From positions 3,437,615 to 3,501,614 of the forward strand of contig OY811983.1 of assembly GCA_963681505.1 (NCBI GenBank): a stretch of DNA of 64,000 nucleotides. Direction: 5' to 3'. Within the stretch, counting starts at the first letter, position 1. Each line of letters opens with the position of its first letter. The notes below the pieces were generated by a model. It had not been told where the DNA came from. It saw only the letters and a program-made list of their open reading frames with translations, and ran no database searches. This DNA comes from Eunapius fragilis (taxonomy: Eukaryota; Porifera; Demospongiae; Spongillida; Spongillidae). The position numbers and the translations under genes are program-made. This document shows, piece after piece, positions 20,102-62,735 of this stretch.

Positions 20102-20387
20102 ACAAGTAAATAAAAACATTCTCTACGAGAAAGTTGGTGGGATATAGGATTTGATTATGACATTGGTGGTGTAAAAAGCAAGGAAACAAGGTCTTATCAG
20201 AAGGGAAAATGTCATAGTCCTATATTTAGCACACAAACAACACATGCCCTAGAAATGTGCTAAATATAGGACTATGACATTTTCCCTTCTGATAAGATCT
20301 TGTTTCCTTGCTTTTTACACCACCAATGTCATAATCAAATCCTATATCCCACCAACTTTCTCGTAGAGAATGTTTTTATTTACTTGT
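20102..20387. mobile_element. Near-perfect 132-bp-arm foldback element
   Basis: Arms 20,102-20,233 and 20,256-20,387 are reverse complements with essentially one mismatch, around a 22-base loop. No coding capacity. It could be a MITE or foldback transposon. If transcribed it would give a long double-stranded hairpin. Confidence 0.85.
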
Positions 20388-21467: not shown

Positions 21468-21864
21468 TTCCACGTAGCGGTGATGTAATCTGTTGGGAAT
21501 CTGGGTTTGGGTACGAGACTAGTTCTGTCCCGCCAGATTTGCATAGCTGGAAACGGGCTGTGCAGAACTATACAGGTAATAAATCAGCCCTAGTGCATTG
21601 ATGGTTTCGTGTATAGCTATATGGTTGAGTATTTTGAAACACCTTGCATTTTCTCATTATGTCGTAAGACATGTAAGATATGTGGCTCGCAAAACAGATT
21701 TTGCTGTGATGCGCCTAGAATGGACATCCATGAATTACTGCATCGTTATTTATCCAGCCGCAAACAGCCATGTGCCCCGCGCCCGATAAAACTAAAGTGA
21801 CCGCCCCCATTAGGCATGATGTCATGTAGTACGCGCCCTCTGTTATTGTAGTCATGACCACGTG

Positions 21865-23097
21865 ATGCAACTTAAACGTTGTTTTCGGTCAAAGAAGTGT
21901 GTCTTCGTTCTGATAATTGCGCTGTTACTTAGCGTCATTCTGTTTGTCAATTTGGACTTTCTGATTGACGAGGTTTCGTATAGCGTAAGTAAGCAGGTGT
22001 ATCATTTTACGGACCAGAAAACTCCTCCGCTTACCTCCGTTTCCGGACCATACCTGGTGTTGCGCTCGGTGTACCACGACTCAAGGCGGCGCTATGGTTA
22101 CAATGGTGCACACGTCTTCATGATCGAAGTAGCCAAGGACATCCTCAACCACCATTTAATAGTGGGTTGCAAGGTTGGTGAGCATTACTCGTCGAAGTTC
22201 AAAGTGCATCCTCTCAATATCAACGGGTGGGTGGGGAGGTATCTCGACGAAAGACCATCTTTTACCCACACAATGGCGACAGTCGACTGCTTCAACCTAC
22301 CGCTTGATCTCGCGAACGGCAGTAATGCGATGATCTACTACAAGACCGCACGTAGAGGCATCGTGCTGGAGGTAGCCTCGGAAAGACCCTTACTTCTTCC
22401 TCAGACCACTGCAACCACGAACCGCACACAACCACCCAGCATAGCGGCCTGTCTAGCTGTAGTATACGGACGTCCGCCTTTCGTCGACAGCTGGCTGCGC
22501 TACCAGAGGTCCATAGGCGTGAGCCACGTGCACGTGATCGCCGAGACTTCGTTCGTCTTGGAGGGGGGCCTACGCGAGGCCTTCTTCGCCGATTCCGTCA
22601 GGAATGGGTTTATTTCCGTGGATGTCTGGCAACCGTTGCTGGTCAGTGGTGTGCAGATTCACTACCACTCACAGCTTTTGGCGTACCACGATTGCATCTA
22701 CCGTTTTGCCTCTCAATATGAGTACATGCTGTTTGCAGACCAAGATGACTTCTTTGTACCCTTGGCCCCTAACAGTGCTTCCTCCTTGGGATATTATGTT
22801 GATATGTGGTGTCACAGGGGGTCGTGTGCCTTTGACTGGGTTGAGATGTATCCTGATTGTGGGCTGAATGGTAATGACAGGGCTGATGGTAACCTGACCG
22901 CACTCTTGGTTTCATCTAAGCAGAAGAAGACACCATTCAAGAAATGTATTCATAGGCTGCAAGCGGTTGTGGAGGTGGGTATCCATGACGCTAGAGAGCT
23001 TGTCCATGGCTTTGAAGCTGTGGATGTGCCTGGTCGTGAGGGGTATATGGCACATCTCAGGAAGTATCGACTTCCTTCTGACGGAAAGTGCACCTAG
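21865..23097 (+). CDS. Glycosyltransferase family 92 (DUF23-type) membrane protein
   Basis: Intact single-exon frame of 410 residues from the ATG at 21,865. It is predicted to transfer a sugar, in this family usually galactose, to a glycan in the Golgi. The N-terminus is a type II anchor: basic residues (KRCFRSKK), then a hydrophobic helix (VFVLIIALLLSVILFVNLDF, about residues 13-32). The catalytic region has family hallmarks: VYGRPPFVDSWLRYQRSIGV (about 197-216), LLAYHDCIYRFAS (about 272) and FADQDDFF (about 289), a DxD-type metal/nucleotide-sugar site. Later Cys residues and HGFEAVD fit the C-terminal part. It is intronless, unlike its neighbours, which may reflect retroposition or the habit of this family. 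The exact acceptor cannot be read. Confidence 0.85.
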   Translation: MQLKRCFRSKKCVFVLIIALLLSVILFVNLDFLIDEVSYSVSKQVYHFTDQKTPPLTSVSGPYLVLRSVYHDSRRRYGYNGAHVFMIEVAKDILNHHLIVGCKVGEHYSSKFKVHPLNINGWVGRYLDERPSFTHTMATVDCFNLPLDLANGSNAMIYYKTARRGIVLEVASERPLLLPQTTATTNRTQPPSIAACLAVVYGRPPFVDSWLRYQRSIGVSHVHVIAETSFVLEGGLREAFFADSVRNGFISVDVWQPLLVSGVQIHYHSQLLAYHDCIYRFASQYEYMLFADQDDFFVPLAPNSASSLGYYVDMWCHRGSCAFDWVEMYPDCGLNGNDRADGNLTALLVSSKQKKTPFKKCIHRLQAVVEVGIHDARELVHGFEAVDVPGREGYMAHLRKYRLPSDGKCT

Positions 23098-26174: not shown

Positions 26175-29100
26175 TTAGTACGTACAGCTGCTTAATTTAT
26201 ACATAACTGACATCATAGTGGGGCGTGTGTTAAAATCATTAATTGTACATTCACTAATTAGACGCACCATATCTGGTGCACGTGATGTGAGGCTTTGAAG
26301 CAGTGGTTCTCTCCTCTGCGCGTCTGGGAACTGTCTACTCATCATTTCTAATACAAGGACACCAAAACTGAAGGTGTCCATCTTGGGAGACTGCTGTGAA
26401 GGGTTAAGGCTCTCTGGGGCTGCATACACACTGCTGCCAGGTGCGACTGTTGATAACTGACGCAAAAAGTTGGCTGACCCATAATCGGATAACTTGGCTC
26501 TCCAATTTCCTGCTGCATGAGGTTCCAGCAACACATTAGCACTGCTCACATCTCTGTGGACAATGGGAACTGGTTTCATGGAGTGTAAATAATTCAAAGC
26601 CCTACAAATATCCTTAGCTACAGGTACGACCTGCAGACTTAGTAGTCTTCCATTTTCTATGACTGTTCTTAAACTAGTGGGCATCAGCTCTGTGAGGATG
26701 ATACACTCCCTATCCACAGTGGCTCCAATGAACAGCAGAAGGTTAGGATGATGAACCATGGCAGCCATGTTCATTTCTCTCTTGAATAACTCAATGTTGT
26801 ATGGAGATATGATTGTGCGGTGTAGGAGTTTGGCAGCAACATCAAGGCCACGAAACTTTGCTGCTTTCACCACACACCATCCCCCTGAGCCCAAGACCTG
26901 GTCAGTTAGATCTATTTCCTCCCTCTGTATGGTCCATGATGGCATTCCTTCAGCTTCCCTAACTCTTTCTTTGGCCATCTTGGCTTCCTTTTCAGCTGAA
27001 GTAGCAGTTTCTTCAGCTTCTCTAGCTATCTTTCTAGCTATCTCAGCTTCCATCTCAGCTGCGATAGCTCTTTCTTCAGCTGCAATAGCTCTTTCTTCAG
27101 CTTCAATAGCCCTTATGTCAGATGCAGTAGCTTCCCTTTCAGCTGTTGCTGCCCTCTCATTAGCCATCTCAGCTTCCTTTTCAGCTGCAGTAGCTCTTTC
27201 CTCATCCCTGAGAATCAGTTTACCCTGGAAAATATCATGACAGTACCTTTTCAGAAACACAAGAGGAATACTTTGCTGATAACTGACCTCTGATATTTCA
27301 TTCAATATTATGGTGCAAAATGAACAGGTAATCTCCAAAGAAGTGCTGATTTGAGCAAAACGATATTATAGATTAAAATTAACTCACTTCGTTTGCATTC
27401 AAAACACCAACGAGAGCAGTAGAGCATAATACCCAGTACCAACACACCTGCACACATGGTAGTGAGTCCTATGGGATGAGCACAGTACACAAGTATGTTA
27501 ATAAGCTAAAATGGTTATGTGCGACTTGTTTATAGATTTTAAGGTGATACCTTTATGAGCATTTTCTAGGTCATTTTTCAAGAGAGTGACATTTTGTCTG
27601 AGCTGGTTATGCCCTACGCTGCAGTGTTGAAGTTCTTTATTCAGAAATGTGACATTGTAAAGATGTGTGGTTCTTTCTCCCTGCAGTTTCTTTTCATACA
27701 TCTCCATAGCTTTGTCCTGGTTTTTTCTGAACTGGTTATACTCTTCACTGCAGTGTTGAAGTTCTTTATTCAGAACTGTCACATTGTGAAGATGTGCGGC
27801 TCTTTCACTTTGCAGTTTCTTTTCATACACCTCCATAGCTTGGTCCTGGTTTTTTCTGAACTGGTTATGCTCTTCACTGCAGTTTTGAAGTTTCTTAGTT
27901 AGAAGTTCGACATTGTGGTCATGTGTGGTTATTTCATTCTGTAGAATGTTTTCATACTCCTCCACAATCTGTTCAAGGCTTTCAACTGTGTACTGTAAAA
28001 AAGTGACTTAACACTCCAAAAGGTGGAGTAATGCATGCTCCTAACAATATTGGAGTGATGCGCACTGTCAAGTGTTTGTCCCTCATTAATTTGAGTGTAT
28101 CTATAACATCTGCATGCAATATTGAAGTATTTCCTGACTGAATAAGAAATTTATGTGCAAGGAGTAATGCAACTAGTGTGGGGGGGGGGGATGGACTTAG
28201 GTTGGGTTGAGCCAACAACTAATCACACTCTGTTCACCGATGTAGAAACACACCATTCCGTTTCATTTGTACGCATTACATATAATAAACATGCATTTGT
28301 GGGGTTACTGCATTCTGTGCTATTTCAACTCTGCAAACTAAATATCTGGAGTTCAAATATCAAAATTACACTGGCTTTGCTCCTAAAAGGATTCACTTAG
28401 TAGCATATGGAGAGATGCTTGCTCCAGCCACACCAGAGTGCAGGACACCCAGTATAATTGTCATAAATAACATGAGTGCAGAGTTTAATTGACAATTCAA
28501 ATGAGCATTTAAAACCTGACTGCTGGTCAATGAGTTGCAAAGTTATGTTAAGAATGTTTGATATTATTGCACAGTTGGAAGAACCATTTCATTCTGGCAG
28601 ATAGAAGACATTTTATAATGAATTAATTCTAATTTAGCAAAATGTTCAAGTTTTTATTCAAGCGTTATATTCAATACGTACTTCACAATAACCAAGTAGG
28701 GGGCTTTACTATGTGGAGACTGACTCCAATTATTTAGTTGCATATTTATGATTTGCAGAAATTTTCAAGGCTTTTTCCATAATGGTACTATTAACTAAGT
28801 CATGTGGTGGCTGACTCCAATTATTTAGTCCTCATACCGGCATACACTTTAGCTCCTTGGTTAATTTGCTCATCATAGTTGCAAGTCACCATTGATGCGA
28901 GCTTCTCTATCCCAATATGACCACCGCAAAACATGTGAAATTCAAAGTCATTATCAGTCATATTATCATGCAGGAAATAACTTAGATGGCAAATAATGTA
29001 AAGTTCACTATCCAGAATGACGAAATCCTACGAGTTTCATAAAATTATTTTTTGATTGGTTAAATGTTTCCAAATGTGGTATTATATAGTGGACACCATG

Positions 29101-32100
29101 CTCTGATGGATTTATAATGAACTCAAAACAGCACTGCATGGTAGGAAATTTGTCTCTCATTACAGACATGGACAGGTCAGATTTACCTAATATTACTGCC
29201 TTTGTTCTAACCCACCCTAAAAAGTATCCCGTCACATTTGATTGCAATGGAGCATGCTACATCTGATACATGTATTCATGCTCCACTGTCTGTTGTATAT
29301 AGGTGTACGTACCAACTTCAAAATCTCCTTTCTGACCCGAGCATTCTTTGCAACACCTAATGCTGTCCGTCGATACTGTGTCAGTCAAGCCATATATATT
29401 AATGTTGTACATTTCATATTTGAACTTGAAGCATGCTTACCTTATCTCGAATCTTAGTGTTTGGCTTTGCAGAAAGAAATTGTCGCACAATATCAACATT
29501 CCCAACATTTGCAGCCACATGCAGAGGTGTTTTTCCATCCTATGATTGCAATTGGACAAACCACTTATAACATAGCTAAATGATAATGAAATGTACAGCA
29601 TGCATGACATGTACATGTAGTTTATCATATCTTAATGTTTGGCTTGTTCAGGAGCTTAGTAGTGGCATCATGTACATGATGCATGATAAGATTTTGGCAG
29701 AGTATTCATGAAAATACTGTGTACCAATTCAGTGTTCAATTCTTACATGAGCTGCATCACAGCAACTACACTCATCCTACACCATGAAATAGCGGATAAA
29801 ACGATAGAGACAGTTTTTGAGATAGTAGTTTTGAAGTCACACATTCAATGACATCAAGTTTGCAAGAAGATCAGGAAGAAATATGGAAGAGGGCATTTCA
29901 GACAAAATAAACAAGCTCCTTAATTTCTGAGAATATTACATTGTGGGTTTGACAAGAGTAAAAAATCCGAATCAGCCCCAGGTTTTGTGAAACATACATG
30001 TAAGGTTATTATGTTCACCTTGTATCCAGCTGAGTAAGAGTAAATGAGTGGAATGCCTCAGAAGAGAACACAGTGCTACTAAGAGGCAGTAGTACGAGGA
30101 CAACTATTAAGGTATCAGAGGAGTTCGTCTCTGATTGGCTTGTGATACAGACATAACTTGAACTGCAGATGATGCGGTCCACCAAAAGCATAATATCATG
30201 GCATTGGGACCGAACTGGGAAGAGCAATATACGTCCAGTAACATCTAAGCCGCATACCTGTGCATGCTCTGTATGAATTAAATTACATGATTCATTTAAT
30301 TTTTGTATATTGATACCAGCACATTACATATGCATCATATTGTACCTGCGCACAGTCACTTTCCATGATACCGAGGCCTATGCTTTACATTAGATGTTGA
30401 GAAGTAAACTACTATTGCAGAGACAGACTCACTGTCATGACTTTTGGGTGTCACACACTCACTTATAACTGGGCCCCAAACCTGCTGCACCTTGAACAAT
30501 CAATTGATTATTGGCCTGAAGTTAAGACTGTGGACTGTAACCTCAAATGTGCCAAATATAATACTCGCGTACAATCAAAATGGCCAAATGTTTTTTTGTC
30601 ACTCGATTTCAAATTCTTTCTCACAAATCCAATATTAAGTGTCTTCTGGTGATACGCTGCATATTTGTTTCTGCACTGATTTGGTTGGTATGGAGAATTG
30701 TTAATTGTAATTGTATATGGCTTCGCATGAATATCCTGTGGTTGTGATTACACAAACTGAATGTCACTGCAACAGATTCGATGACTGAATATCGCTATCA
30801 ACTGGCTCAGCTGGCTGCACGATCTGCACCTATGGGCTTAACCATGGCTCTGGTAAAGCTATTTGGTCGGAAGGCATGGCTCTCATCCTTGCTTTCTTGT
30901 GTGAAAGCTGACAGTAGTTAGCACCTCTTGCACACTTGCTTCCTCTTAATGGACATGTGTCAGTCAGTGGTGGCTAAGGCATTAATTGGTATATACAAAT
31001 TCTAATTGATAAGGCCATTAAATTTCATTCAGAAGTTGACAAGTAAGCGACCAGCTACATGGTATGTGATGTAATTATACGTTCAGTACACATGCGCAAG
31101 TGATAAGCCTGAACCAATTGTCATGTAACATAGGAGTGTATGGGCATGTTTGCATGAGTGTGTGGGTATGGAATATGGGTATGGAATATGAATATGGGTA
31201 TGGGAGTAGTTACATTATGATTACTGTCTGTACTGTTATATTCGTTACACGCATTTGTGGACTCACAATGTCTTGACTGTTAACATCCACACCTGCTGAA
31301 ATCAGTGCCTGAGTTACTTCCCAAGTAAAAATGGCAAGCTTGTGACAACCTTGCCACATGGTTGCTGCAACCTTGTTTACAACCTTGTAAGATAAACATG
31401 GTTGTTTAATAGTTGTGGAAGGTTGCAGACAGGTTGTAGGATTTATGACAAGCTTGTCTTATGGTTGTAGAAGGTAGTAGTTGGTTGTAGAATTGTTTAA
31501 GGCAGTTCATGACAAGCTTACTATATGGTTGTAGAAGGTTGTAGGGGATTGTAAGATTAATTAATGCTGTTTATGACAAGATTGTACTGTAGAAGTTTAT
31601 CATCATTGAATGCATGCATGGATGCATGACCAAGGGAGGCAACAGATTCGAAGATGTTAATTTACATGTAATTCTTAATTTACTACAGATATACTTAGAT
31701 GTCGCTCTATTTAAATCATAAATACATGATCAAATTGCCATGCAATGTGAAGTGATTACATACTGTCATGCACAATGTTTGTACTTTACATAACATTACA
31801 AAAGAACATGAATGTTGTTCAAATTATGCACAAGTATATGTTCAAGTAAACATGTATAAATCTATTCAACTTCTTTTGAGTTGGGAAATATACTTGCATA
31901 GATGTGATCTTCTTTATACTGCATCAATATGCACTTGTCCTTGATACATTTTATAGGTATGCACTTCTTGAGTCCAGTCACTGAACTACATATTTAAAAT
32001 GAAAGTGTTACCATTTTAAATATAATGTATACTATAGCTATGTTAAACGTACGGCAGATTTAGCTTTGTAATGTGTTGGTCAATGGAGCAATCTGTGACA

Positions 32101-35100
32101 GAATCGTTACTCAGAATTTCTCCAGTTGGAATAAAAGGGAAGACAATTGCATATGCATCATGATTCTCACATAGGACAACCAATAATAACTCTCCATAAC
32201 ATGTCATGCCATCTTGATCGCAGAATACGATTCCAGAATTATTACGAAGAAGGCCTTTGTGTAACTTTCTTTTAGTTTTCACTATTCTGCCAGTGCTTCT
32301 GAAATGTATTTTGGAGTACAACACAACAGGATAATCAGCTGGGATTGCAAAACCACCTTTGGTAAATACAGCAATGTGCTCTTGGGTAAGCTCAGTGCCA
32401 CATGGTTTTCCATGCATACAGATATCAGCTGATATGAAATTGCAATGGCTGCATTGGATAAAACAGATGCAGCAATGAAAAGCACATATCAAACAATACT
32501 ATACCTTTTACTCCTTCCATAAGAGTTAGACATTTTCCAAAACAGTTCTTCCTCTTTGCTTCCAGTAGCAATTTTTTTACCAAGCAGTGGTAACGTTGAT
32601 ATTACTCCAATACGATTAGCAATCTGATTTATAAACAAGTGGTAAAAATTAACTTATCATAACACATATGAGATGTATACCTGCTTTTCAACACATGTTG
32701 TTCCATGAAATAGCTTCAACATTTCACCATTTGCAGACTCAAACGGAAAACATGAATGAGCCCAAAGTGGACCCAATGACTTCACTACATCTGGAAGATG
32801 TATAAGTCCATGGAGATTCATTGAACTGTATCTTTCACCTATCACAAATATACATGTAGAAATACACATACATGTATTTATGATAAATGCGAGGAATAAA
32901 CTGAATGCATGAAAACGGTTAATTACCATACAGAACCGGAAAAAGATAGGTGTAGTGCATTAATAGTTCTCCACTTTTTGAGATGTCTTCTTCCTCCACA
33001 GTGTCTTTCAACAATAAATATATGCCTTCCACAAATAAGAGATGATGTTGGTAATAGTCGCTATGCAAAAATCTTTGCAGTACTACAGGGCTGTAGTGTA
33101 GTAACCACGTTCTTAGTTCGTATGCTGCGCAGTGCAAACACATACATGCATGTAAACACACCTATCTGCATGCAGGCATTACACACAAACATGTATATAT
33201 ATACACTTGTACCTTTCCAATAATTCAAGGTTCCTTCAATACTTCTTGGTGCTCTTAATATTTCATCAGGTGGAGTAATGGCACACAATAATCTATCTAT
33301 TTCTTTAATGTGACATCGGAGATACCATGGTTGCTTAGAATGGGTTGAATCAAACCAAAGATGCAGTAGAAGTCGAGTTATTCCAAGACACCCAATGTGC
33401 ATGTAATCAAAGCTGACACCCTTAATAATATTAAACCGTGGAATGGTTGCCAACCATGAAGGCCCTTTAATACCACGGACCTATATGCAAGTAACACATA
33501 GATACAATTAACTGTATATATATATGTTGTGTATATGAATATCAAATCTACCCACAGGAGATCCAGAAAGTACAGCATCAGCTGCATTTTGCCAGTACTG
33601 CTCACAGGTTCTCATTGGTCCTGTTGGATCTTCAAGTTGATATGGAAAGGTCATCACTTGTCCATTATTTGCTGTTTTAACTACTGCTCCTTAAAAAAGT
33701 AGTAATTAAATTTAGGATAACTGTACTCATTATTGAAATTATGTGAATTTATAAAAATACTTGCCTTTTTGAGTGCAACGCAGGCATGCATAATAACCAT
33801 TAAATTGCACCATATTTGTGAGCAGAGCTCTTGCTGGTAAATCACATGTACAAGCTAAAAGCACTGCTTGACTTCTGAAATGGATGTGACTATCTCCGTT
33901 TAATGTAACTTCAACACCTACGCATATAGATATGACACACAAATTACTGTAGTCTAGTATATATATGCACGCACATGCATGTATACATACCTTCAGAGTA
34001 TAACTTTGCCAAAGTGTCACCTAAATATCTTAATACAAAAGTCATCTCTGGTTTTCCTTTTCCATACCAGAGACCTGCTACCAGTCTGTTCTCTATTAAG
34101 TGCCTGCATGCAAGAAAAATATGTTTTCAATCAATCTGAACAATTTAGATGCATAAATAATTAAACCATATATGGTATAAGCACATGTATACTGATCGAA
34201 TTAAATAATGATAATAAAATACCTGCATGCATGCATGGGCGGAATTATAATATGTCAGTGTACCTTTTTTTAATAGGAAGCTCATTTATTTGAAGGTAGA
34301 TTGGCCACAATGAGAAGGATGACGATTTAAACACTGGAACACCATCTGCATTTAGGGTGAATGATACGTTATTTTTGTTGCTTAGAAATCCATCCTTAAT
34401 CAGTGCGCGATACAAAGCACCATCATACACATCACAGTAATGACTTCTTTTTTCACAACGGAAATGATACATCTGATGTATATCTTCCCAACATCCTGTA
34501 CAAAAAAATTATCATGATTATTATAATGCACACTATAGCTATATAGATCATGATTATACATGCAGATATAAGTAATACATTCATACACATCGCATGTATA
34601 CAGATCTTGCTAGCACACAAATATGATGCACATGCATGTACATCAGTCTTACTTTGTAATACATTTTGCAATTGCAACTCCAATGGAAGCTCTACAAACG
34701 TTGATCTCGATCCTTTAGATAGTAGTGTGGCTTTACATTTAGGGCAGTGCTGTGCATCTTTGGAAATATCTTGCATACAGTTATTACAAAAATAATGAAA
34801 CTCAAGAGGAAAGTTCATTGCCATAAAAGGCTTATTGAACATATATACAGATGAGGGCAAGTCTATTTTTGGCATGAAAATGTGAAGAAGTTTAAGAAGG
34901 TCTGATATAGCTTCCTGTGTTAAATTGTGTCGCATGATGTATTGCATTAAGAGTACATTGGATTCTGATGGTTCAGAACTCAATGAATCAACTTGTTCAT
35001 CACGACACACACCTGGAATAAATTCTGTCTCCCTGGGTAATTCGTCATCGGCTAAACACTCTGAGAAATTGCTTGGATTGGAATAATCATTTGGTAAAAA

Positions 35101-38100
35101 TTCTGGCTCTTCGGGTAAATCACGTAAAATCGGTACAAAATGCTGCTCAAGCATTACATCATGCTGCTCAAGCATTACATCATTTTCAGGGACATTGAAT
35201 GGCTCATCTGTCACGGTTGTATAGGCTTCTTGCTTATCATTCTGTTCTACGTGTTCCGCACACTCACAGTCTGCATTTACAGTAGTTTGCTGACCAGCTT
35301 CCCCAATAGCCATGTCACAACGCCGTTTCTTCTTTATCCTGTAGCGTGTAGTTCTGCTTGTCGCAAGTTTTGACAGAGGGTCTGAAAACTGAAATTGGAT
35401 TGAGTTGTGTACTCGTCTACTTGCACCCGCCATTTCAAAAAAAAAAGAACAACTTATTAACGAGCACGTGATGCTTCACATGTTTTATTTTAAATTGGCA
35501 TGGTTGAAAGCAGAGCCATAGTTCCGATGACATCGCTCCCGTGTCCGAGTTTTCTGTTAGTAAGATGGCTTGACGACGAAATGTTGAGCGTCATTTCTGA
35601 GAAAACCGTCCGACAAGGTGGCCAAACGTACGTGGGAGCTATATCACAGTTCAAATGGTGTGGGAAAAAGCTTTATGATGGTGAAGTGCTCGCAAAATCT
35701 GGTAAGAATACGTAAGAATGTGTGACTGAAAGAGAAATGATGATGTATCTATGTATGAAGTACTGTACGAATTGGTTTAGGCGATTGTGTAGTTTACGGT
35801 CCCTAAGTACAGGTAAGTTAATATCGCGCAAGGCGATGGAAGAGCGGTCTGCTGACCTTTTCCTCCTTGCTAGAGCGACTGGCTTATTGTACAAGCTAGT
35901 CATTTTAGGATCGGGCCAAGATAACTAACGCTTTACTCCTTTTGATACTCGTAGTGCTAGTGGATATGTCCGCCAGCACTTCTTGTTTTACAAGTAGTTA
36001 AGCATTAGTTGTCTCGGCCCAATCCTAAATGCATGGACTTGTACAATAAGCCAGTATCGTTAAATGCAAGTATAGGTCCTTTCTATCAACACTTTTTTTG
36101 CTGTACACCTGGGTGAAATTCGATCAGGACAATTAATAGACACTACGATGGATCATGCCTGCATGGATTGAATGAATATGATGTCATGTCAAAAATGAAT
36201 AACAATGAAATAAATATACTGTAAGATAAAATACACTCTGTGAACTAGGTCCTAGAGCTGGTTTATCTATATTTCAATTAAGGTGATCGTCGAGATCTAG
36301 AGAAGAAAATTGATCAGCTAATTGCTATGGAGATCACACGTGATGAACTTCTTGAAAGTGCTGCAACAGAAGTTCATTCTACGACACCTACAAAGTTGGA
36401 TCCAATTGAGAGACCATCAAAGAAGAAAAAAAAAATCTCCCAACATGAGCGCATACTAGCCCACAAAGACATTTTTCATCACCACATGATGGGAAAGCAG
36501 CGTGGTGAGAAAAATAAGTGTATACATGTACTTGTTTGTGAATGCACATTACAAAACAACTTTCAAGTGCAAGTGTAAAGCATGCATGGTATAATGATGG
36601 AATAATGTCTTTTTATAGTTACTCGTAGTGTTGTGTACCAATCGAATGATATGAGAGGGACCACACTCAATCATGGCGATGTTTCTGTGAGTTGATTTTT
36701 ACATGTTAATGTAATTGTAATCTGATTTCCATGCATTTAGGTGCAACTCCTAGATACTGTGGATGATGTTAACTCTTTTACAACCACTGCGGATGAGGTA
36801 ATAATTTGTTGTAATTACACAAGCTAATCATTAACTACATGTCATTCTTTTGCAGGCACACCACCAGACTGATCAGTCACCATTCTCATTTCCAGCTGGA
36901 TCACCTGCCCTAGTTGGTCGTAGTCAGCCTTCTGTGAGATCACCTTCACCAGTTGTCAGTTCCAATGCCTCTCTTGGTCGTAGTCAGTCGTCTGTGAGAT
37001 CACCTTCACCAGTTGTCCGTTCCAATGCCTCTCTTGGTCGTAGTCAGTCTTCTGTGAGATCACCTTTACCAGTTGTCCGTTCCAACGCCTCTCTTGGTCG
37101 TAGTCAGTCCTCTGTAAGATCACTTTCACCAGGTGTCCGTTCCAATGCCTCTCTTGGTCATAGTCAGTCTTCTGTGAGATCACCTTCACCAGTTGTCCGT
37201 TCCAATTCCTCTCTTGGTCGTAGTCAGTCTTCTGTGAGATCACCTTTACCAGTAGTCCGATCCAATGCCTCTCTTGGTCGTAGTCAGTCGTCTGTGAGAT
37301 CACCTTCACCAGTAGTCCGATCCAATGCCTCTCTTGGTTGTAGTCAGTCGTCTGTGAGATCACCTTCACCAGTTGTCCGTTCTAATTCCTCTCTTGGTCG
37401 TAGTCAGTCTTCTGTGAGATCACCTTCACCAGTAGTCCGATCCAATGCCTCTCTTGGTCGTAGTCAGTCGTCTGTGAGATCACCTTCACCAGTTGTCCGT
37501 TCCAATTCCTCTCTTGGTCGTAGTCAGTCTTCTGTGAGATCACCTTCACCAGCTGTCCATTCCAATGCCTCTCTTGGTCGTAGTCAGTCGTCTATGATAT
37601 CACCTTCACCAGTTATCCGTTCCAATGTCTCTCTTGGTCGTAGTCAGTGGTCTGTGAGATCACCTTCACCAGTTGTCCGTTCCAATGCCTCTCTTCGTCG
37701 TAGTCAGTCTTCTGTGAGATCACCTTCACCAGTTGTCTGTTCCAATGCCTCCATTGGTCGCAGTCAGTCACCTATTGGTGGTGTGAAAAGACATGTGCAG
37801 GTATGTGAAAATTTTGTTGCATTTACACAAGTCAAATAAGGTAATACTTGTAGGTTGAATTAGTAGAGGGCTATGGGGTGTATCTTTCTAAACGCCAGCT
37901 GGAAGAAGCGATAGACCAGAGCAATAACTCGCCTACTAAGCTGATAAGAAATCTCCTTACTGTATTTTTTACGCCATCTGTCTTGGCTTCGTCAAGTTGT
38001 GGGGGTACAAGAAAATTTCCATGCCTCAACAGAGATGTAATAGCTGCTTGTATACGTAAGTTTACTAATTGTATGCACTTCTTTCATTTATATAGTCCTT

Positions 38101-41100
38101 ATTACCTACAGGCTTTGTGCAGTCACAACATAAGATCAATAGAAGCCTATTAGTGGATGCCATAAATGATAAGTGTGCGAATTATAGACGAAAACGGAAT
38201 ACCAACACAAGTGTGAATGACAAGTCACGCAACGCAGTCGTCAATGAATGTTTGTAGTTGGACTCCACTGCACCACAGCATTTAGTATGCAGAGCTGTGC
38301 AGAGTCTGCATACCAACCATATGCAGACGGATATCATAGAAGTGTTCATATGCAGACGTCTGCATACGAACACTTCAACAATACTCATCTGCACATGGTT
38401 GGTATGCAGACTCTGCACAACTCTGCATACTAAATGCTGTGGCACAGTGCTCCTTTGCATTTTGCATTTTTCTTATTTGCTTTTTGCATTTAGCTGTTTT
38501 GCATTTTTTTGTGCTTTTTTTCACCTGGTGCTGTGACATTGTATGACTATTTAACATTCTCAGACAACGTTGTTTTGGATATTAATTAACAACCTTGTTT
38601 TGGCTCACAACAACTTAACAACAGGTTGTAACAAGGTTGGAACAGTTTCAAATACTTAGTAGTGACAAGCAAAAACAAGCTTGTTTACATGGTTTAAACA
38701 ACCTTGTTACATGGTTCAAACAACCTTGTTACAGGGTTCAAACAACCTTGTAAACAAGGTTGCTGCAAGCTTGCCACAAGCAAGCCATTTTTACTTGGGT
38801 TGGGCAGATGATTTTTTGACAGCCAAATGTAATGGGGTCAGACGATTCTGCAACATGATCATAATAATTTGCATTGAAACCTTAGCTTGATAAACAGGAA
38901 ACAACCACATGTTATCTGCATTAATGTAGCGGTGCAGAAACATAGTGTTTTAATGTAGAGGTGTTCACATTACCTGAAGCTAAAACTGCACAGCAGCTAG
39001 AGCAAAGGAACCTATTAAGGAACAACCAACTTCCATTGACTGATGCAGACAAACTATGCATGCTAGAAAGATAATTTAAACACTGTTGGATAGAGAATTT
39101 AACGGAGATTACAACCATATTAACCATAGCAAATGTTGCATGAATTCTGGTACTGAAAACTCACTTTTCGGCAAACATACCTCAATGTATGGGAAAGGTA
39201 CCGAATAAGGAACAACCACATCAAAGGTTTGTTATATAAACACACAGCTGCATGGGGTTTGCCTTGGGGAGGGGGGCGGGTGCTACCTGTTTAAAAATGA
39301 AATCTTCAACTGCATTGTAGTCTAATTATGGCCGATAAGCATAAAGGCTATTCTCCTGAGGTCGCTATGAAAGCCATAGTATTCTTGAACTTAAGGGGTG
39401 TGGGGGTGACGATAGAAGAGGTGTTCGAAGCTGCAAAGGCACTAGAGCCTGAGGAAGGCTGTTCGTTTAATTTTATTGTGCTTGACATCAGCGTTGAAAG
39501 TAGAAACAGTGCATCCAGCACTAGTTAAAACATCTGTAAACTTAGTGGGTTAATCAGATTCATTGATCTGCGCATGATCTTAAAACAGTAAACCCATAAT
39601 GTTGATTAAGATTTTTAATGAGATTTAGTGTTCCTTAATACGGGTGTGTTCCACATTCGGTTCCTTTGCTCTACATGTATATGGTGTCTGCACAATGCAG
39701 ACACACACCTACATACAATGCCACCAGAACATTCTACATGGCCACAAGAACATGCCACATAGCCTCACCTCAGCTTTGAGATTGCCATCTGCGCTGGAAC
39801 CCAGCAGTGTGACCACCACTTCTTTACTTCCAGCATCAGAGGCATAATGCAAAGCACTCCAGCCATACTGTGGTTGTGAGACACAATATTAAGGATTTTT
39901 GAATCAATGCCCTACAATTGCAAGGCAAAAGGTACGTTGCATGGTGCCAAATTGACAGAAAATCAAGAAGCTTGAGAGTGGTCATCAAGAAAAGTTGTGG
40001 ATTAGTCACTGCAATCATTAAGCTCTACAAATATAGAATACTCATATGTTTGAGGCTTGTTATTACATTTCCTGGGGAATTGGGTGCACTCACACATGTG
40101 GCTTTTTTTTGATTACCTGGAGATATTCTGCGTTTGTAGAGGAATGCTGCAATGCAAAATCTGCACTTTAGGCTTATAGCCATTTAGTTACTTATGTATA
40201 TTTTTCAATGGTATCCAATAAGCATCATACATTATAGTGTTGGTTTAGGTACTAAACTTGGTTCAATGTTTTGGCAAATGCGAGCAATATGCAAAATCCC
40301 CAGCCTAAAGCCTGGGGTTTACCCCCTGGGAAAGCCTCACTTCCATTCAACCCTGAGCCTAGGGAAAGCCTCACTCCCATTCAAACCTAAAGCCCTTAAA
40401 GTCTGGGAAAACCCTCACTTACATTCAACTAATCCCATCATCCTATCTAACACACTGTCCCCAAAGATATTGACATCTGATATGGTTCCAGGTCACACAT
40501 GTATATAAAGGATGGTAGGGTGGGCAGCAATCACTCAGTCCAAAGCTAAGGCTGCCAGCTGCATTGTTTACCCACCCATCACTCCACCTGTGCATTGACT
40601 GTACTTGTACACGTTTGCTGTGGTCTTACTTGCACATCAATGGTAGGGGGCACCCTTCGGGCTTCTACCCTGACCTAACCACCTTACCTTGACCAGCGTC
40701 AAGGGGTGGGGCTGACTTAATGGGGACCAGCGTTTCCCTTGGTTCCAGTCAGGCTCAGGGCAGAGGGTCAGCACCCTTATGCACACTCGACTGGCCGGCT
40801 GCTGCCTAACTCCTTTTGGGCAAACAATAAATTATGCCAATCGCTGGGAATCACGATTGGAGTGCATATAGTATACCAAGCATGAGGGAGCATTCAGACA
40901 GCATTAACAGTTGTTTAGTATTTCATCTGAACCTTTGAGGGCCATCGCATGCAGTACTAATATAATCATTGTCTCCAGGTGAGGGTAAAAACTTCCTCTT
41001 CTACCTCCTATCTAGTCCTGAATGCATATGGTTGCCTTTTTAACATAAAAACAAAATGTGGTAAAGACAATTACTTATAATCAACAATATGTTAGAATTA

Positions 41101-45566: not shown

Positions 45567-48500
45567 TCATTTCGTGTACAAACTAGCAGCAAACACTATG
45601 TCTCTCTTTATAAGCGCAGACGCATCCATCATTTTCTGACGCAAGTTTGGCTCTCCAATTACGTGGGCAGCATTGCGAACATCTTTACAAGTTTCATCCA
45701 AACGTTGAATGCAGCGAACAATGATACCTGTAAAGATAAATACTCAAGGTCAACAAACATAACACGCATACATACATGCATGTCAATACAAGCATATAAT
45801 CAATCTGACGCAAACAAACAAGATAGAAAACCCAGAACAGAACATTTTACATTTGTGAAAATAAATAAATAAAAACCTTGATGACTTTACTCTCGGCTCT
45901 ACTAACTTAGAAATTGTGCCAAAAGCCTTTTCCTTCTATATTTGTTTGTTCCATATAGCCCAAGTACTTATAGAGTAGAACTAAACATATTCATGACCAA
46001 CTCAATTGTACGTTAACCACATTAATTTTGCCATTTTCAAGGATCCACTTTTAATGTTGCAATGATTACCTAGATCATGGACCACCCTCACCTCCAATGG
46101 AAGAATCAGCTGCTTGCTACACATTTGGTGTGGACATCATTACTGCGCATGCATACAATTGCCCAGACATTAACAAAATTGATCAGAAAATGTCCGATAT
46201 TTGACCTTTATCCACTACACTGAAGGGTGGTCAGTATCAGCGCAAATATTGTGCAACAATGCAATGGTGAGAGACGACAAGCGTTCCCATGGATCCAAAT
46301 TGCTGGAGGTGTTACAGGTATAAATGGTTAGTTATCAGGCCGGCTTAGATAAGAATCCGTTTTACAAATTCTATCTTCTGAGGCCATTGGATGTCAGGAA
46401 AGATGCCCTCAACCAAACTTGCAACATGTATTATATATTTTCATTGGTAAATCATTCATTGAATTGGTGCATTTGTGTTCATGATCCCCGATGTTCAGTC
46501 ATCCCTGAGCTAACACCTATGCCAGGACCTTTTTGGAGTGTTTTATAGGTCACCAATGCCAAAGAGGCGGTGTCCATGACTATGGTATCCTGACCACTGT
46601 GTGATTGTCATAAATAAGGTGTCAAATACTGGTGCAAGAATGCAAGCACAGGCAAGCATAGGCAAGCACATGCAAGCTTAGCTTTGATGGACCAATGGGA
46701 TTTGTAGAGTTCACCTGACAGGAGTCGTGGACAAATCCCATTGGTGGAGTGGACTTTTCAGTTGTTATGTATTTATACCCTTGCACAGTGTATTGATTCG
46801 GTTGGTCTGCACTATTATTAGATTGTGTAGCGTCCAAAGAGATTGTGATTACCCGATTATCCTTCGGGATAGCGAGGCAGTTGGGTTGTTAGGATACTAC
46901 ATTTGGCGAAGAGGGCAAAACACTGGCAATGGTGGCACTATTCGGCAGCATTGCAGAATTCGACTCTTCCCAAGAGGAATGGTCAGCGTATGCAGAGAGG
47001 TTAGCGCAGTACTTCATGGCGAATGGCATCGCAGACGACGACAAGAAAAGAGCGATTTTCCTCAGCGTACATGGAGCGTCAACCTACAAACTACTGAGAG
47101 GCCTGGTAGCGCCTCAGAAACCTGCGGAAAAGACTTTCATGGAACTAGTCGCGGTCCTCGGTGGACATTTTGATCCAGTTCCTTCAGTAACAGTTTCCAA
47201 ATACAAGTTTAACACTAGGGATCGACAGAAGCCAGAAAGCGTGGCAGCTTTTGTGGCAGAGTTAAGACAGTTGGCGGCTCATTGCAACTTTGCGGCGACT
47301 CTGGACGAGATGCTTCGAGACAGGCTAGTGTGCAGCATTAACGACAACTGCATCCAACACAGGTTATTGGCCGAACCCAACCTGACATTCAAGAAAGCTT
47401 TGGAGCTAGCGCTAGCTCTAGAGTCAGCGGAATGTGATGCAGCGAATCTGACTTCAAAGCCACTACAAAACCCGTGTGATGCAGTGAATGCGGTTGAACA
47501 GAAAGCAGCAAGAACGGTTCGTGTTATCGCTGTGGAGGAAAGCATTCGCAAGAAATCTGCAAGTTCAAACAAGCAGACTGCTTCAACTGCGGGAAGACTG
47601 GACACATAGCCAAAGCTTGCAGATTGAAAGCGAAAGCGAAGGCGGGAAAGTTTGGAACAAAGAAGCCCGACAAGGCAAAGGCTAATGTGGTGTCAGCGGA
47701 TGCGGAAGAGTCTGAGATAGGTATATTAGTCGTTGAGCCTGTTAAAAAGTCCAAACCTATCACGGCGATGGTACGTTTGGAAGGAAAAGTTCTAGAAATG
47801 GAAGTTGACACTGGAGCGGCGATCTCTTTTGTCAGCGAAAGGACGTTTATGAAGCTATGGGGAAATAAACGTTTGCCGCAGCCTTCGACAATACAACTGA
47901 AGACGTTTACAGGAGAACGGATCCGGGTTCTGGGGGCGATGGAGGTAGTTGTCGAGCACAACAGCCAGAAGAAGAAGTTGGAGTTATTTGTGGTGCAAGG
48001 TCATGGCCCAAGTCATCTGGGAAGGAGCTGGTTGGAGAACCTAAAATTGGATTGGGCACAGCTGAATATGGTTCATGCGGAAACAAAGCCAAAACTAGCA
48101 GAAGTCCTGAACCGACACCAGGAAGTGTTCAATGAACAACTCGGTGTAATGAAAGGGGTGAAAGTATACCGGTAAATAGTAGTGGATGAAAAGGAGAGTC
48201 CACAGTTCTTCCAACCTCGCACAGTTCCACTAGCGTGGAAAGCAAAAGTGGAAAAAGAACTGGACAGGTTGGTGAGCACGGGCGTAATTGAGCCAGTAAA
48301 ATTCTCAGACTGGGCTGCGCCAATCGTTCCAGTCATCAAGCCTGACGGTTCAGTTAGGATTTGCGGTGATTACAAATTGACTGTGAATAAAGTAGCAAAG
48401 CTGGAAGCGTATCCACTTCCACACGTGGATGATCTCTTCGCATTGCTCGCTGGCGAGGTAGCGTTTTCAAAGTTGGATCTCGCTAATGCATATCAGCAGT

Positions 48501-51500
48501 TGGAGCTAGATGACGATTCAAAGAAGTTTGTCACTGTGAACACGCACAAGGGTCTGTTTCAGTATAACCGCCTTCCGTTTGGAGTATCTTCGGCTCCTGC
48601 GATATTCCAGCGTACGATGGACTCGCTGTTACAGGGAATTAAGCATGTATGCACTTACATCGACGACATCTTGGTGACAGGCGAGAATGAGAGCGAACAC
48701 TTGAAAAATTTGGACGAGGTATTGAAGCGACTCAAGGAGGCGGGAGTAACACTAAAAAGATCTAAATGTTATTTTCTGCAGCCTGAGGTTGAATATTTGG
48801 GCCACAAAATATCAAAAGCGGGGTTAAGTCCCACAGACGCGAAGGTGAGAGCTATTTTAGAGGCACCAGCACCAGAGAACGTCTTCCAATTGCGTTCATT
48901 CCTGGGACTCTTAAATTACTACGGAAGATTCCTTCCAAGTTTGTCCTCCATGCTAGCTCCACTCCACACCCTGCTGACTAAAAGGAAATCTTGGTCATGG
49001 GAAAAGCCGCAGCAGGTAGCGTTTGAAAAGGCCAAGAAATTGTTGACATCCTCAAAGATTTAGCCCAATATGACAGCAAAAAGGACCTAGTACTTGCCTG
49101 CGATGCTTCACCATACGGAGTGGGAGCAGTATTGTCACATAGGGATGCTGATGGGACAGAGCAGCCTATAGCTTTTGTGTCAAGAACTCTGGCAACGGCA
49201 GAACGAAACTACTCTCAGCTGGATAAAGAGGGGTTGGCTATTGTATTTGCTGTCAAACGCTTTCACAACTACCTGATGGGAAGATCTTTTGTTATTTGTT
49301 CAGACCACAAACCATTGCTGCACTTGTTTGGAGAAAAGCAAGGCATTCCAGCAATGGCATCAGCAAGATTAGCGATGGGCACTGATTTTGAGTGCCTACC
49401 AGTATACCATTGAGTGCAAGGCAGGAAAGCAGAATGCTAATGCAGACTCATTGAGCAGACTACCCCTTCCAGATATACCTGTGGAAGTTCCTGTGCCAGA
49501 AGAGACAGTCTTTCTAATGGACACCCTTCAAGACCCTGTCAGCGTGGCTCAGATCCGACGCTGGACAGATAAAGACCCAATATTGGTGGAAGTGCGTAAC
49601 CTACTGAAGGATGGTTGGCACACAGACTCTGAAAATGATGATTTGAATCCTTACAGCAGATGCAAGGATGAACTCAGCATCCAGGAGGGCTGCATCATGC
49701 GGGCCATCAGGATTATTGTTCCTAAACCAGGGCAACAATTAATACTACAGGAGCTTCATGCGGGCCATCAAGGCATTTCCAAGATGAAAAGCTTGGCCAG
49801 AAGTTTCGTGTGGTGGCCAAATCTGGATTCAGACATCGAGAAAACAGCAGAGTTGCCTTACATGTCAAGAAAATCAGAAAATACCAGCTAAAGCACCTCT
49901 CCACCCCTGGGAATGGCCTGATGTTCCATGGTTTCGTCTACATGCAGACTACGCGGGTCCTTTCTGTGGAAAAATGTTTCTTCTAGTGATTGATGCACAC
50001 TCGAAGTGGCTGGATGTCCACTGTGTTCAGTCAGCTACATCAGCAGTCACCATTGATAAGTTGAGGTCTTCCTTTGCTACCCATGGCATTCCCCACACAC
50101 TGGTCACAGACAACGGTTCAGTCTTTACAAGTGCTGAATTTGAACATTTCTTGAGACAAAATGGTGTACGACATGTTAGAACAGCACCATATCATCCATC
50201 TTCAAATGGATTAGTGGAAAGGGCAGTCCAGACTTTCAAAAATGCAATCAAGAAGTCTGAAAAAAGGGAGTCATTAGAATGCAGGCTAGCAAAATTCCTG
50301 TTCAGTTACAGAACGACACCTCACACAACTACTGGCAAAACCCCAGCAGAGCTTCTCATGGGCAGGTGTTTAGGAACTCGTCTGCACAAGTTGCTACCAG
50401 AAGAAGAAGTGAGAAGGAGAGTACTTGAAAAGCAAAACATGCAAAAGAAAGCACATGACAAGAATGTTAAGCAGCGCAACTTCTTGGTTGGGGATTCTGT
50501 AATGGTGAGGAACTTTGGAAGCGGTTCCAAATGGATTGCAGGGAAAGTGTCTAGCAGCAGGGGTCCTGTATCTCTTCAAGTGCTACTGAATGATGGCAGG
50601 AGTGTTCATAGACATTTTGATTATGTTCGTAGTGCATCTAGTTTTCTGGTGAATCCAGGAAAACCGGCATCAGTCTCAGAGCAGGAAAATTCATGGGCTG
50701 ACACTCGGACTACGAGCATGGAAGAAGCAATACCTCGCGAACAAAGAGTTAATGTTCAACCGGATGAAGAACCAGAACCTCCACCTCACATTGAAGAGCA
50801 AGCAGAGGAACCAGGGGCAGCCAAGCTTCCAGTCCTTAGGTGTTCAGCAAGAGAGCGACATCCCCCTGTTAGATTGTAAAAAGGGAGGAAATATGGTATC
50901 CTGACCACCGTGTGGTTGTCATAAATAAGGTGTCAAATACTGGTGCAAGAATGCAAGCACAGGCAAGCATAGGCAAGCACATGCAAGCTTAGCTTTGATG
51001 GACCAATGGGATTTGTAGAGTTCACCTGACAGGAGTCGTGGACAATCCCATTGGTGGACTTTTCAGTTGTTATGTATTTATACCCTTGCACAGTGTATTG
51101 ATTCGGTTGGTCTGCACTATTATTAGATTGTGTAGCATCCAAAGAGATTGTGATTACCCGATTATCCTTCGGGATAGCAAGGCAGTTGGGTTGTTAGGAT
51201 ACTACAATGACAACAAGCCATCCAGTATATTTCTCTTCTTCATAAGCAACACAGTGCCTACCTAGCATACCTTGCAATGATCCATAATAGTAATGCATGC
51301 GGAATTAATTGTGTTATTATAGCCATTATAACTGCGCAGGGATTTATTCTAAAATTAGATTGACGTGCTATTTTAGTAGCAAATGTTGAAGGATGCTCAG
51401 AACAAGCATGTACTTCTATTTCCCAGGCCTACATATGAAGATAATAATAATCGTTACATCATGTGGGTCTGAGGGAAGACTACCCTTTGCTTCTCAGCAT

Positions 51501-60090: not shown

Positions 60091-62735
60091 GCCAACATGG
60101 TGGCACTTTTTGATTCAGGAAATGAATTCACCGTGAACGCATTACGAAGGTCACTTAAGCACTTCCTAATGGCAAGGGCTACATTGAAGAAGAAGAATCT
60201 TACACATAATTGGGATGCTATTATCCAAAGCAATTTGCTCTGCCTATGCATCTACTGACACAACACACATATCTACTGTAGTAAACCTTTCTCCTGACCA
60301 GCAATTTTTTATTCCCATTGTCTACAAATCTAAAAAGTGGTTGTAATAGATGTGCTGTCAGTTCTTAGTGTTTCAGAGAAAGAATGTCTGGTTGAAATAT
60401 TGCTAAGGCTTATATGAAAGAGTATATTGACTTTCTTGTAGTTGACAGTCTAAAGGTGGAGTCGCTGATTGGGAGATTTTCTGGAGAAGCATGGCTGTGT
60501 AGTTAACTTGGAAGAGGGAGTGCTCCAGTTGAAGGGAATCAGTATACCCCTTTCAGAACACAAGAAGCAGCTACAAAGACAGAATGGCACCTGCACCATT
60601 GAGCCTTGTGGAAACAGTGACCATTCCACCATTTAGTGAGTTGGAAACAATGGCAAGTGCTGCCATAACAGGTGCGGATAGTGTGTGGCTGGTGTCAGGG
60701 TTAGATCTCAGCTTATCTGTAATTGTTGCAGCTGCAGTGGTGTCTTGTGAGAGCCAAGTCAAATTCCCATCAGAATGATCAACCCTTCAACAAGTGAGGT
60801 CACCATTTACAAAGGCACAAGAGTAGCTATGGCTGAAGAGATGGAGTGGATGCTTGCCTCTATAACAGAAGTAGAGGGTGCTTCCAACAAAAAATCAACT
60901 ATAACAGCACAGAAGCAGCAGATCTTATGGCAGATGGTGGAACAATGCGAGGAGGAACTGGCTACTGAACAAAAGGAACAGCTGTACCATCTGCTACTGG
61001 CCTATGCAGACATATTTGCGGATGGGAATGATGAGTTGGGGCGGACAAAGTGTGTTCAACATGTCATTAATACAGGAGATCATCCACCTATCAGGCAGCC
61101 CTATAGGCGCATACCAGCAAGCAGAGGGGAGCAGGCCCACCAGCTGGTTCAAGAGATGCTACAGAAGGACGTGATCCAGCCATCTTCAAGTCCATGGGCA
61201 TCACCTGTGGTACTCATCTAGATGGATGGGTCATACCGTTTCTGTGTTGACTATAGGAAATTGAACAGGATAACACGTAAGGATGCCTACCCCCTCCTCA
61301 AAGTGGATGACACCCTGGATGCTTTGGAAGGCACAAAGTGGTTCTCCACACTGGATCTCTTATGGGGTTATTGGCAGGTTGAGGTGAGCGAAAAGGATAG
61401 AGAGAAAACGGCATTTGTGAGGCGAGATGGTTTGTTCGAATTTAAGGTGATGCCGTTTGGGTTCTGTAACGCCCCTGCCACTTTCCAACGATTAACGGAT
61501 TTGGTCTTAGCAGGTATCCATTGGAGCAGCTGCCTTGTCTACATCGACGGCATTGTGATCATGGCACGGACGTTCCAGCAGCACCTGGTTAATTTGACGC
61601 TGGTGTTGGATAGGTTACGCGGAGCTGGGTTGAAATTGAAGCCCACCAAATGCTCTCTCTGTCACAAGGAAGTCCTTTTCTTAGGTCACAGAATAACGAG
61701 AGAAGGAATAGCTACCAACCCGGCCAAGACAGCTGTAGTGCAGAAATGGGCTGTTCCCCAAACGACACAGGAACTCCAAGGGTTCCTGGGACTGGTCGGT
61801 TATTACAGAAAATATGTGAGTGGCTTTGCTGGCATCGCTAAACCTCTGTATCGGTTGATAGAAAAAGGGCGTGAATTTAAGTGGACGTCGGAATGTGGTG
61901 CAGCATTTGATGAGCTGAAGGCACGCCTCATGACAGCTCCCTTTCTAGCATTTCCCAACTTTTCAAGAACATTCATCCTCGACACAGATGCCAGTGACGT
62001 GGAATTAGGAGCCGTACTCTCTCAGGAGCATGAAGGAAACAAATGTATGGTAGCCTACGCTAGCCATGTACTGACCAAAGCCGAGAAAAGACACGGTGCC
62101 ACCCGGAAGGAGTTACTCGCAGTGGTAACGTTTGTAAAACATTTTCGAGCATATCTCATAGGCCGGCACTTTATCTTGCAAGTCAAATCAGACTCATTAA
62201 TTAATTGTGTATGGACTTGCAACTTTGGATACTGCTGGTAGGTATAAGAATTTGTGCATTAAATACATACACTCTGCACCAATTGTTTAGGGATATATCT
62301 TTGCCAGCCGCAGTTTTAAAGTGTTCCTCTTGAACTGATCATGGCTCTCTACAGTGGCTCTACAATTTCCGAGAACCGGAAGGACAAATGGCGAGATGGT
62401 TGGAGCTCCTCCAAGAATTTGACTTCGAGGTCATCCACCGGAGTGGGCGTTGCCACACCAATGCGGATGCCCTCTCTCACTATAAAGACGAAGGCGAAGG
62501 CAACAGCCCATGTGTTACAGCAACGTTACTAGCTGCTAAGGACTCGGGGTTTTCAATGAACATACAGCAGCTGCAGTAAGAGGATGACGCCATCGGTCCC
62601 ATACACCAGGCACTAAGCCAGGGAGCACGGCCAAACCTAGCAGACATCAAGGGGAAACCCAGAGAGTTTGCTGTGTTGGTTCAACAATGGGACCAGTTGG
62701 TTTTACAGAACCTCCTCGCATTACAAATATAAATA
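60091..62735 (+). pseudogene. Decayed second Gypsy pol (protease to RNase H), integrase missing
   Basis: Order: protease start (VALFDSGNEFTVNAL, about 60,100), protease C-terminus (FLEKHGCVVNLEEGVLQLKG, about 60,480), linker (INPSTSEVTIYKGTRVA), RT and RNase H (ILDTDASDVELGAVLSQEH). A connection region (EVIHRSGRCHTNADALSHY) follows. Breaks: frame changes around 60,480-60,775; an in-frame TAG at 61,219-61,221 just before the RT core; the RT catalytic motif reads YIDG instead of YIDD (61,540-61,551); and about 140 extra bases near 62,200-62,340. After DDAIGPIHQALSQG the element stops near 62,735 without integrase or LTR. It belongs to a different Gypsy lineage from the 46.6-kb copy. Confidence 0.85.

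Follow-up and report, generated by a model that had tools for sequence, protein, structure and literature searches.

A candidate autonomous TRC-type CACTA/EnSpm transposon very recently inserted in a coding ankyrin exon of the sponge Eunapius fragilis

The stretch of DNA analysed here, 64,000 nucleotides (nt) of contig OY811983.1 of the sponge Eunapius fragilis (C13:3437615-3501614, referred to as the window), contains a 7,480 bp element that interrupts an exon encoding an ankyrin repeat (Table 1). The two ends of the element are exact 16 bp reverse complements (CCCAAGTAAAAATGGC at the left end) with TT outside each, and beyond them a weaker inverted similarity extends to approximately 71 bp (70%). 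The original prediction of a two-gene DNA transposon, bounded by such ends and by TT and situated in a coding ankyrin exon, was upheld; the element is intact by sequence.

Rejoining the two exon halves (48 nt and 53 nt, sharing the TT) restores a 99 nt exon of 33 open codons in phase 0, with an AG acceptor and a GT donor, whose peptide NRLTPLHLAVKKSSAQVTQALISAGVDVNSQDI is an ankyrin repeat (Pfam Ank, E=2.2e-07); this reconstruction had been proposed in advance, as had the sister exons of equal length, both of which were found. A search of the 219-Mb genome (24 contigs) with the rejoined exon identified four places, namely the two halves and two matches on C13, the contig of the window. One match (C13:3321927-3322015) is 81% identical, and the other (C13:3385475-3385573, locus L072), 83 kb away, is an uninterrupted, open exon identical at 98 of 99 nt. 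The L072 paralog aligns with the window across both flanks (94% over 859 columns, with 33 gap columns and 19 substitutions), giving a substitution divergence of 2.3% (19 of 826 aligned bases), and has one TT at the point of the window insertion. It is a natural empty site, matching the one that had been reconstructed from the two halves. As the insertion is absent from this paralog, it is shown to be younger than the duplication of the host gene, barring traceless loss from the paralog. Downstream on the same strand are a protein kinase open reading frame (ORF), which probably belongs to the interrupted gene, and an ORF at 27498-28007 that appears coiled-coil by eye and has no Pfam match; these same-strand ORFs suggest that the host is an ankyrin-kinase gene, whose parts would be joined in a single transcript. 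The insertion would either break this gene or, given a symmetric exon that corresponds to a single complete repeat, lead to exon skipping that drops one 33 amino acid (aa) ankyrin repeat in frame, and the loss may be buffered by the paralog with the intact exon.

The splice structures of both genes of the element are predictions from the sequence. The earlier claim that neither gene is interrupted by stops is correct after splicing (11 and 7 predicted exons for genes 1 and 2, respectively) and incorrect as an unspliced reading. All splice sites have AG acceptors and GT donors, with the sole exception of gene 1 intron 4 (GC-AG). Pfam domain scores for gene 1 were obtained with an 844 aa (10-exon) model without exon 11, and showed Transposase_21 at 50.9 bits (cut-off 28.6) and DUF1258 marginally above its cut-off (33.4 vs 33.1 bits). 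A protein search with residues 200-760 as the query, in which scoring was confined to the 7,997 candidates with the most words in common, gave 228 relatives. Identity is 35-47% among the best 120 of these, which include named relatives from acorn worms, sea anemone, coral, molluscs, fish, amphioxus, sea cucumber and brittle star. Two catalytic Asp, a C2C pair, an H3H pair and a Glu are invariant columns in an alignment of 50 sequences chosen from the best 120, and correspond to D311, D401, C420/C423, H636/H640 and E660 of the window protein. This is the layout D..D-C(2)C..H(3-4)H..E that one report gives for the CMCT clade of transposases, on which the putative catalytic role of these residues is based (PMC12730594). 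The confident predicted model of a gene 1 relative has a RAG1/ProtoRAG/Transib-like fold, and its C-terminus resembles BAH chromatin-reader domains.

When the C-terminal 99 residues of gene 2 were compared with the PDB up to E=10, the only matches were two sequences of NACC1, a BEN-domain protein (E=0.017 and 0.026); the Pfam BEN score against the whole gene 2 protein is 12.3 bits (E=0.2). This domain is a probable, statistically marginal BEN domain and is therefore named BEN-like. A literature search found no CACTA element reported to encode a BEN protein, which is weak evidence of absence. With most of the tandem array excluded from the query, the protein collection yielded a sole relative of gene 2 (P0121, 57% identity, 29% coverage), and gene 2 relatives with 57-68% identity lie alongside two divergent family members in the same genome, copy L036 and C16:2.376 Mb, the latter beside a one-mismatch end. 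The subterminal motifs CAACCTTG and CAAGGTTG have no occurrence in the interior of the element. TnpA of En/Spm binds subterminal repeats, and by analogy repeats such as CAACCTTG are putative binding sites of the gene 2 protein.

A miniature inverted-repeat transposable element (MITE) of 184 bp sits just past the gene 2 stop and is a later arrival, foreign to the original element. At this position copy L036 is in the pre-insertion state, and copy L031 reads CTC-AG-CTC, which can be interpreted as an excision footprint.

Table 1 Features of the element and of the interrupted host gene (window positions; gene structures are predicted)
Feature	Position	Strand	Detail
Whole element, TRC-type (CCC-ended) CACTA/EnSpm transposon	31320..38799	.	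7,480 bp
Left 16 bp terminal inverted repeat, CCCAAGTAAAAATGGC	31320..31335	+	37 exact genome matches
Right 16 bp terminal inverted repeat	38784..38799	-	
Target-site duplication TT, left copy	31318..31319	.	single TT in empty paralog
Target-site duplication TT, right copy	38800..38801	.	single TT in empty paralog
Left subterminal region, short repeated motifs	31336..31579	.	CAACCTTG x3, GGTTGTAG x5 (first 260 bp)
Right subterminal region, short repeated motifs	38540..38783	.	CAACCTTG x4, CAAGGTTG x2 (last 260 bp)
Gene 1, transposase, 882 aa, 11 exons	31862..35433	-	Transposase_21 (PF02992) E=1.5e-13
Gene 1 exons	34653-35433, 34264-34495, 33991-34103, 33765-33917, 33556-33689, 33213-33480, 32927-33124, 32681-32838, 32512-32623, 32053-32428, 31862-31985	-	
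Gene 1 C-terminal domain, exons 10-11, residues ~716-881	31862..32428	-	homologue has BAH-like fold
Gene 2, 613 aa, 7 exons, divergent from gene 1	35500..38257	+	66 bp between starts
Gene 2 exons	35500-35701, 36283-36504, 36619-36686, 36741-36797, 36856-37800, 37854-38055, 38112-38257	+	
Palindrome in gene 2 intron 1	35878..36055	.	arms 87 nt, 76% complementary
60 bp (20 aa) Ser/Arg/Pro-rich tandem array in gene 2	36898..37800	+	length differs among copies
BEN-like C-terminal domain, gene 2 exons 6-7	37854..38257	+	marginal statistics
Nested foldback MITE, CACTG..CAGTG	38266..38449	.	184 bp; 3 bp duplication CTC
Interrupted ankyrin exon, 3' half, 53 nt including TT	31267..31319	-	
Interrupted ankyrin exon, 5' half, 48 nt including TT	38800..38847	-	
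Sister ankyrin exon, upstream, 99 nt	39769..39867	-	one repeat
Sister ankyrin exon, downstream, 99 nt	29441..29539	-	one repeat
Protein kinase ORF, downstream, same strand	26175..27365	-	Pkinase E=1.2e-32

The 16-mer end occurs exactly 37 times in the genome and, at up to two mismatches, 112+95 times, compared with 66+69 times for the reversed pattern, an abundance that exceeds chance. Among the 37 exact occurrences, 20 are arranged as 10 convergent pairs, a further one has a partner with a single mismatch (L040), and 16 are unpaired; pairing was drawn from 30 retrieved end loci, the unpaired ends comprising nine that were retrieved and seven that were not. The resulting 11 copies, the window copy included, are 4,160-9,180 bp long. 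The flanking 2 bp are identical in 10/10 exact-end pairs and the flanking 3 bp in 0/10, with the duplications (as on the contig) being CT, AA, AA, TA, TA, TT, TG, AC, TA and TT; L040 has TA/TA. Further copies, for which a search with the 16 bp ends had been proposed, are present, with 2 bp duplications of varied sequence. Neither of the observations that the original prediction named as refuting was encountered within this genome, where the exon also occurs uninterrupted and the ends of the paired copies agree. Relative to the window copy, and counted outside the 60 bp array, there are 2 substitutions in L037 (on another contig), 5 in L032, 25 in each of L033 and L034, 29 in each of L039 and L040, 47 in L035, 74 in L031, 303 in L038 and 612 in L036. 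Copies L033 and L034 are identical over their full 7,632 bp, have unrelated flanks and have different 2 bp duplications. Of the 11 copies, four (window, L032, L035 and L037) retain open frames and intact splice sites for both genes, and another two (L033 and L034) have an open gene 1; in each of the remaining five, one gene or both are damaged by stops, frame changes or the loss of splice sites. In L033/L034, gene 2 is interrupted by stops (codons 46 and 548), and since these copies multiplied with a dead gene 2, its product is either supplied in trans or superfluous; in cis the gene is not required.

Several copies are associated with other sequences. L035 contains a 2.1 kb insertion (GGGTAGCG..CGCTACCC, apparent TA duplication) in gene 2 intron 1, at approximately 36046 in window-equivalent terms, and both of its genes are still open. 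One copy (L001/L002) lies inside an integrase fragment of a long terminal repeat element (Integrase_p58_C, E=3.1e-12) and another (L027/L028) inside a 231-codon open frame, residues 1-120 of which have no Pfam match. At C6 7.09-7.22 Mb, ends with common flanks occur at separate places (L023/L025 and L024/L026), a segmental duplication bearing a degraded copy.

The pre-insertion site in the window (31311-31319 joined to 38802-38810) holds TTACTTGGG, which reproduces 9 bp from the end of the element, and such a match was attained by 3 of 2000 shuffles. At the other nine insertion sites, 3-6 bp are shared with the end, matches that between 355 and all of the 2000 shuffles also attained. Targeting of the element to its own sequence was rejected because these nine sites match the end no better than shuffles do; the 9 bp match is a mild coincidence given ten sites.

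Taken from the sequence, the locus is best read as an autonomous cut-and-paste transposon of the TRC branch of CACTA/EnSpm, very recently inserted in a symmetric 99 nt ankyrin exon, a reading to which we assign a probability of roughly 0.92. Transposition is very recent and may be ongoing, as originally predicted, and the evidence is stronger than that prediction could draw on, because L033 and L034 are identical at unrelated sites, L037 is two substitutions away and an empty paralog exists. Several observations weigh against parts of this reading. At least one gene is broken in 7/11 copies, and a 43 bp sequence at 31747, downstream of the gene 1 stop, is present in 10/10 other copies and missing from the window copy alone. 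Nonsynonymous and synonymous codon differences in gene 1 (10-exon model) number 7 vs 5 for L035, 3 vs 2 for L033, 1 vs 0 for L032 and none for L037; being few and more often nonsynonymous, they leave purifying selection among the open copies without demonstration. The BAH-like fold is visible in the model of a homologue rather than in the window protein; the C-terminus of the latter has diverged (it scores 45.7 bits against the homologue profile), and its last 174 residues, exon 11 included, have no Pfam match. For gene 2, the Pfam BEN score of the C-terminal 99 residues (16.1 bits, E=0.013) is below the cut-off of 23.2, and the predicted structure is unreliable (pLDDT 34).

It is very improbable that the family is older and that its copies look young through gene conversion or segmental duplication. 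The C6 group illustrates that copies do get duplicated, but homogenisation of this kind does not fit identical copies (L033 and L034) that have unrelated flanks and different 2 bp duplications, nor the absence of the insertion from a paralog so close that substitutions affect just 2.3% of its flanks. A related question is whether the window copy moves by its own proteins or is a non-autonomous passenger, a good substrate moved by proteins made elsewhere in the genome. The spread of L033/L034 despite the stops in gene 2 makes trans supply or dispensability of gene 2 likely, and the 43 bp loss is private to the window copy; however, the window copy has two open genes whose introns all have AG acceptors and GT donors (GC in one case), as well as the full set of catalytic motifs, and the passenger explanation is considered unlikely.

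The same spread of L033/L034 would be expected if gene 2 were captured cargo or a factor acting on the host, outside the transposition machinery, and the sole homologue found outside this genome covers just 29% of the query. Against this, gene 2 relatives accompany the divergent members L036 and C16:2.376 Mb, and En/Spm is built on such a plan, with TnpA as the protein that binds the subterminal repeats, so that cargo is judged doubtful.

For the autonomous transposon, a working mechanism can be proposed. The gene 1 protein, a RAG1-like DDE transposase judging from its catalytic motifs and fold, would cut at the CCC ends; a staggered 2 bp cut would be opened in varied targets and the element joined there, the duplications being observed and the chemistry presumed. 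The BAH-like tail of gene 1 would probably dock the complex on chromatin, and the gene 2 protein, through its probable BEN domain, would probably bind DNA, plausibly at the subterminal repeats, as an accessory factor able to act in trans. The BAH-like tail is the most interesting feature of the element and one that specialists may not expect. Pfam BAH had no match in the 844 aa window model or in five homologues, a PDB profile search up to E=1 returned no BAH chain, and a literature search found no report of a BAH domain in any transposase, which is weak evidence of absence. We tentatively propose, as an idea that could well be wrong, that animal CCC-ended CACTA transposases are RAG1-fold enzymes with a BAH reader of their own that may select sites by histone marks, that the element's ends are recognised by a BEN protein, and that the family here is recent and perhaps live. 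In V(D)J recombination, the PHD reader comes from RAG2. If the BAH-like tail reads chromatin, gene 1 would be a RAG1-fold transposase with built-in epigenetic targeting, which would bear on site choice and on how chromatin reading became joined to RAG-like recombinases. The near-identical full-length copies, open genes, empty site and clean 2 bp rule make the family a good start for a testable animal CACTA-type transposon.

Elsewhere in the window, two clusters of reverse-transcriptase ORFs (46893-50879 and 60751-62241; RVT_1 E=4e-31 and 4e-30, respectively) are interpreted as Ty3/gypsy type. A single-exon ORF of glycosyltransferase family 92 (425 aa) is located at 21820-23097; among its 27 relatives the one with a name is Em1323g1a, an identifier in the style of Ephydatia muelleri, which fits a sponge host. 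A large inverted repeat was spotted by eye at 20155-20370.

Because CCC-starting ends, a 2 bp duplication and Transposase_21 are all present (three of the three TRC characters examined), the element is a member of TRC, the already-known CCC-ended animal branch within the CACTA/EnSpm superfamily; this identity, unnamed in the original prediction, lowers the surprise. Transposase similarity led to four further families in this genome, which likewise start with CCC at the single end seen (CCCAGTGAAAAATTCT, CCCAAGGAAAAGTGTC, CCCAGCAAAAAGTTC and CCCTAGAAAAAAATC, read from where homology between copies stops). Plant CACTA elements such as En/Spm (TnpD and TnpA, the latter an accessory protein) make a 3 bp target-site duplication. 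The element shares with them a Transposase_21 transposase, subterminal repeats and the accessory-protein plan, and differs in having CCC rather than CACTA ends and a 2 bp duplication; no CACTA/CACTR ends were found, and 3 bp duplications occur in 0/10 exact pairs. The 5'-CA..TG-3' ends that apply to CMC(T) elements in most cases are likewise absent, the element ending in CCC..GGG. RAG1/Transib transposition generates a 5 bp duplication, and the duplications found here are 2 bp only. Likeness to RAG1/ProtoRAG/Transib lies in the overall transposase fold, as seen in the model of a relative, and in the D..D-C2C..H3H..E layout, as given in the source (PMC12730594), and the differences are an identity of only ~10-13% and the extra BAH-like C-terminus.

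The closest comparison is with animal TRC elements, which DeMarco 2006 (PMC1636069) places in the CACTA superfamily on the basis of CCC-starting ends, 2 bp duplications and Transposase_21. That study gives a CCC core in the ends (Tribolium CCCTAGTAGCACC.. and Aedes CCCAGTCAAC), 2 bp duplications in 7/14 SmTRC1 copies, and Transposase_21, spliced transcripts and a tandem-repeat region in SmTRC1/TRC (PMC1636069), all of which have a counterpart here, splicing being predicted. The production of several alternatively spliced transcripts is a further character of the TRC branch. Relative to SmTRC1/TRC as described there, the element differs in its 16 bp ends (CCCAAGTAAAAATGGC), its two divergent genes, the probable BEN partner and the several copies with open genes. 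Spongebob of Hydra (EnSpm-4N1_HM) is similar in its CCC-starting ends (CCCAGCCAACATTGAC), 2 bp duplication and TRC/CACTA assignment, but according to its description no exact transposase was available there owing to stops and frameshifts (PMC4298943), whereas in Eunapius fragilis four copies have both genes open.

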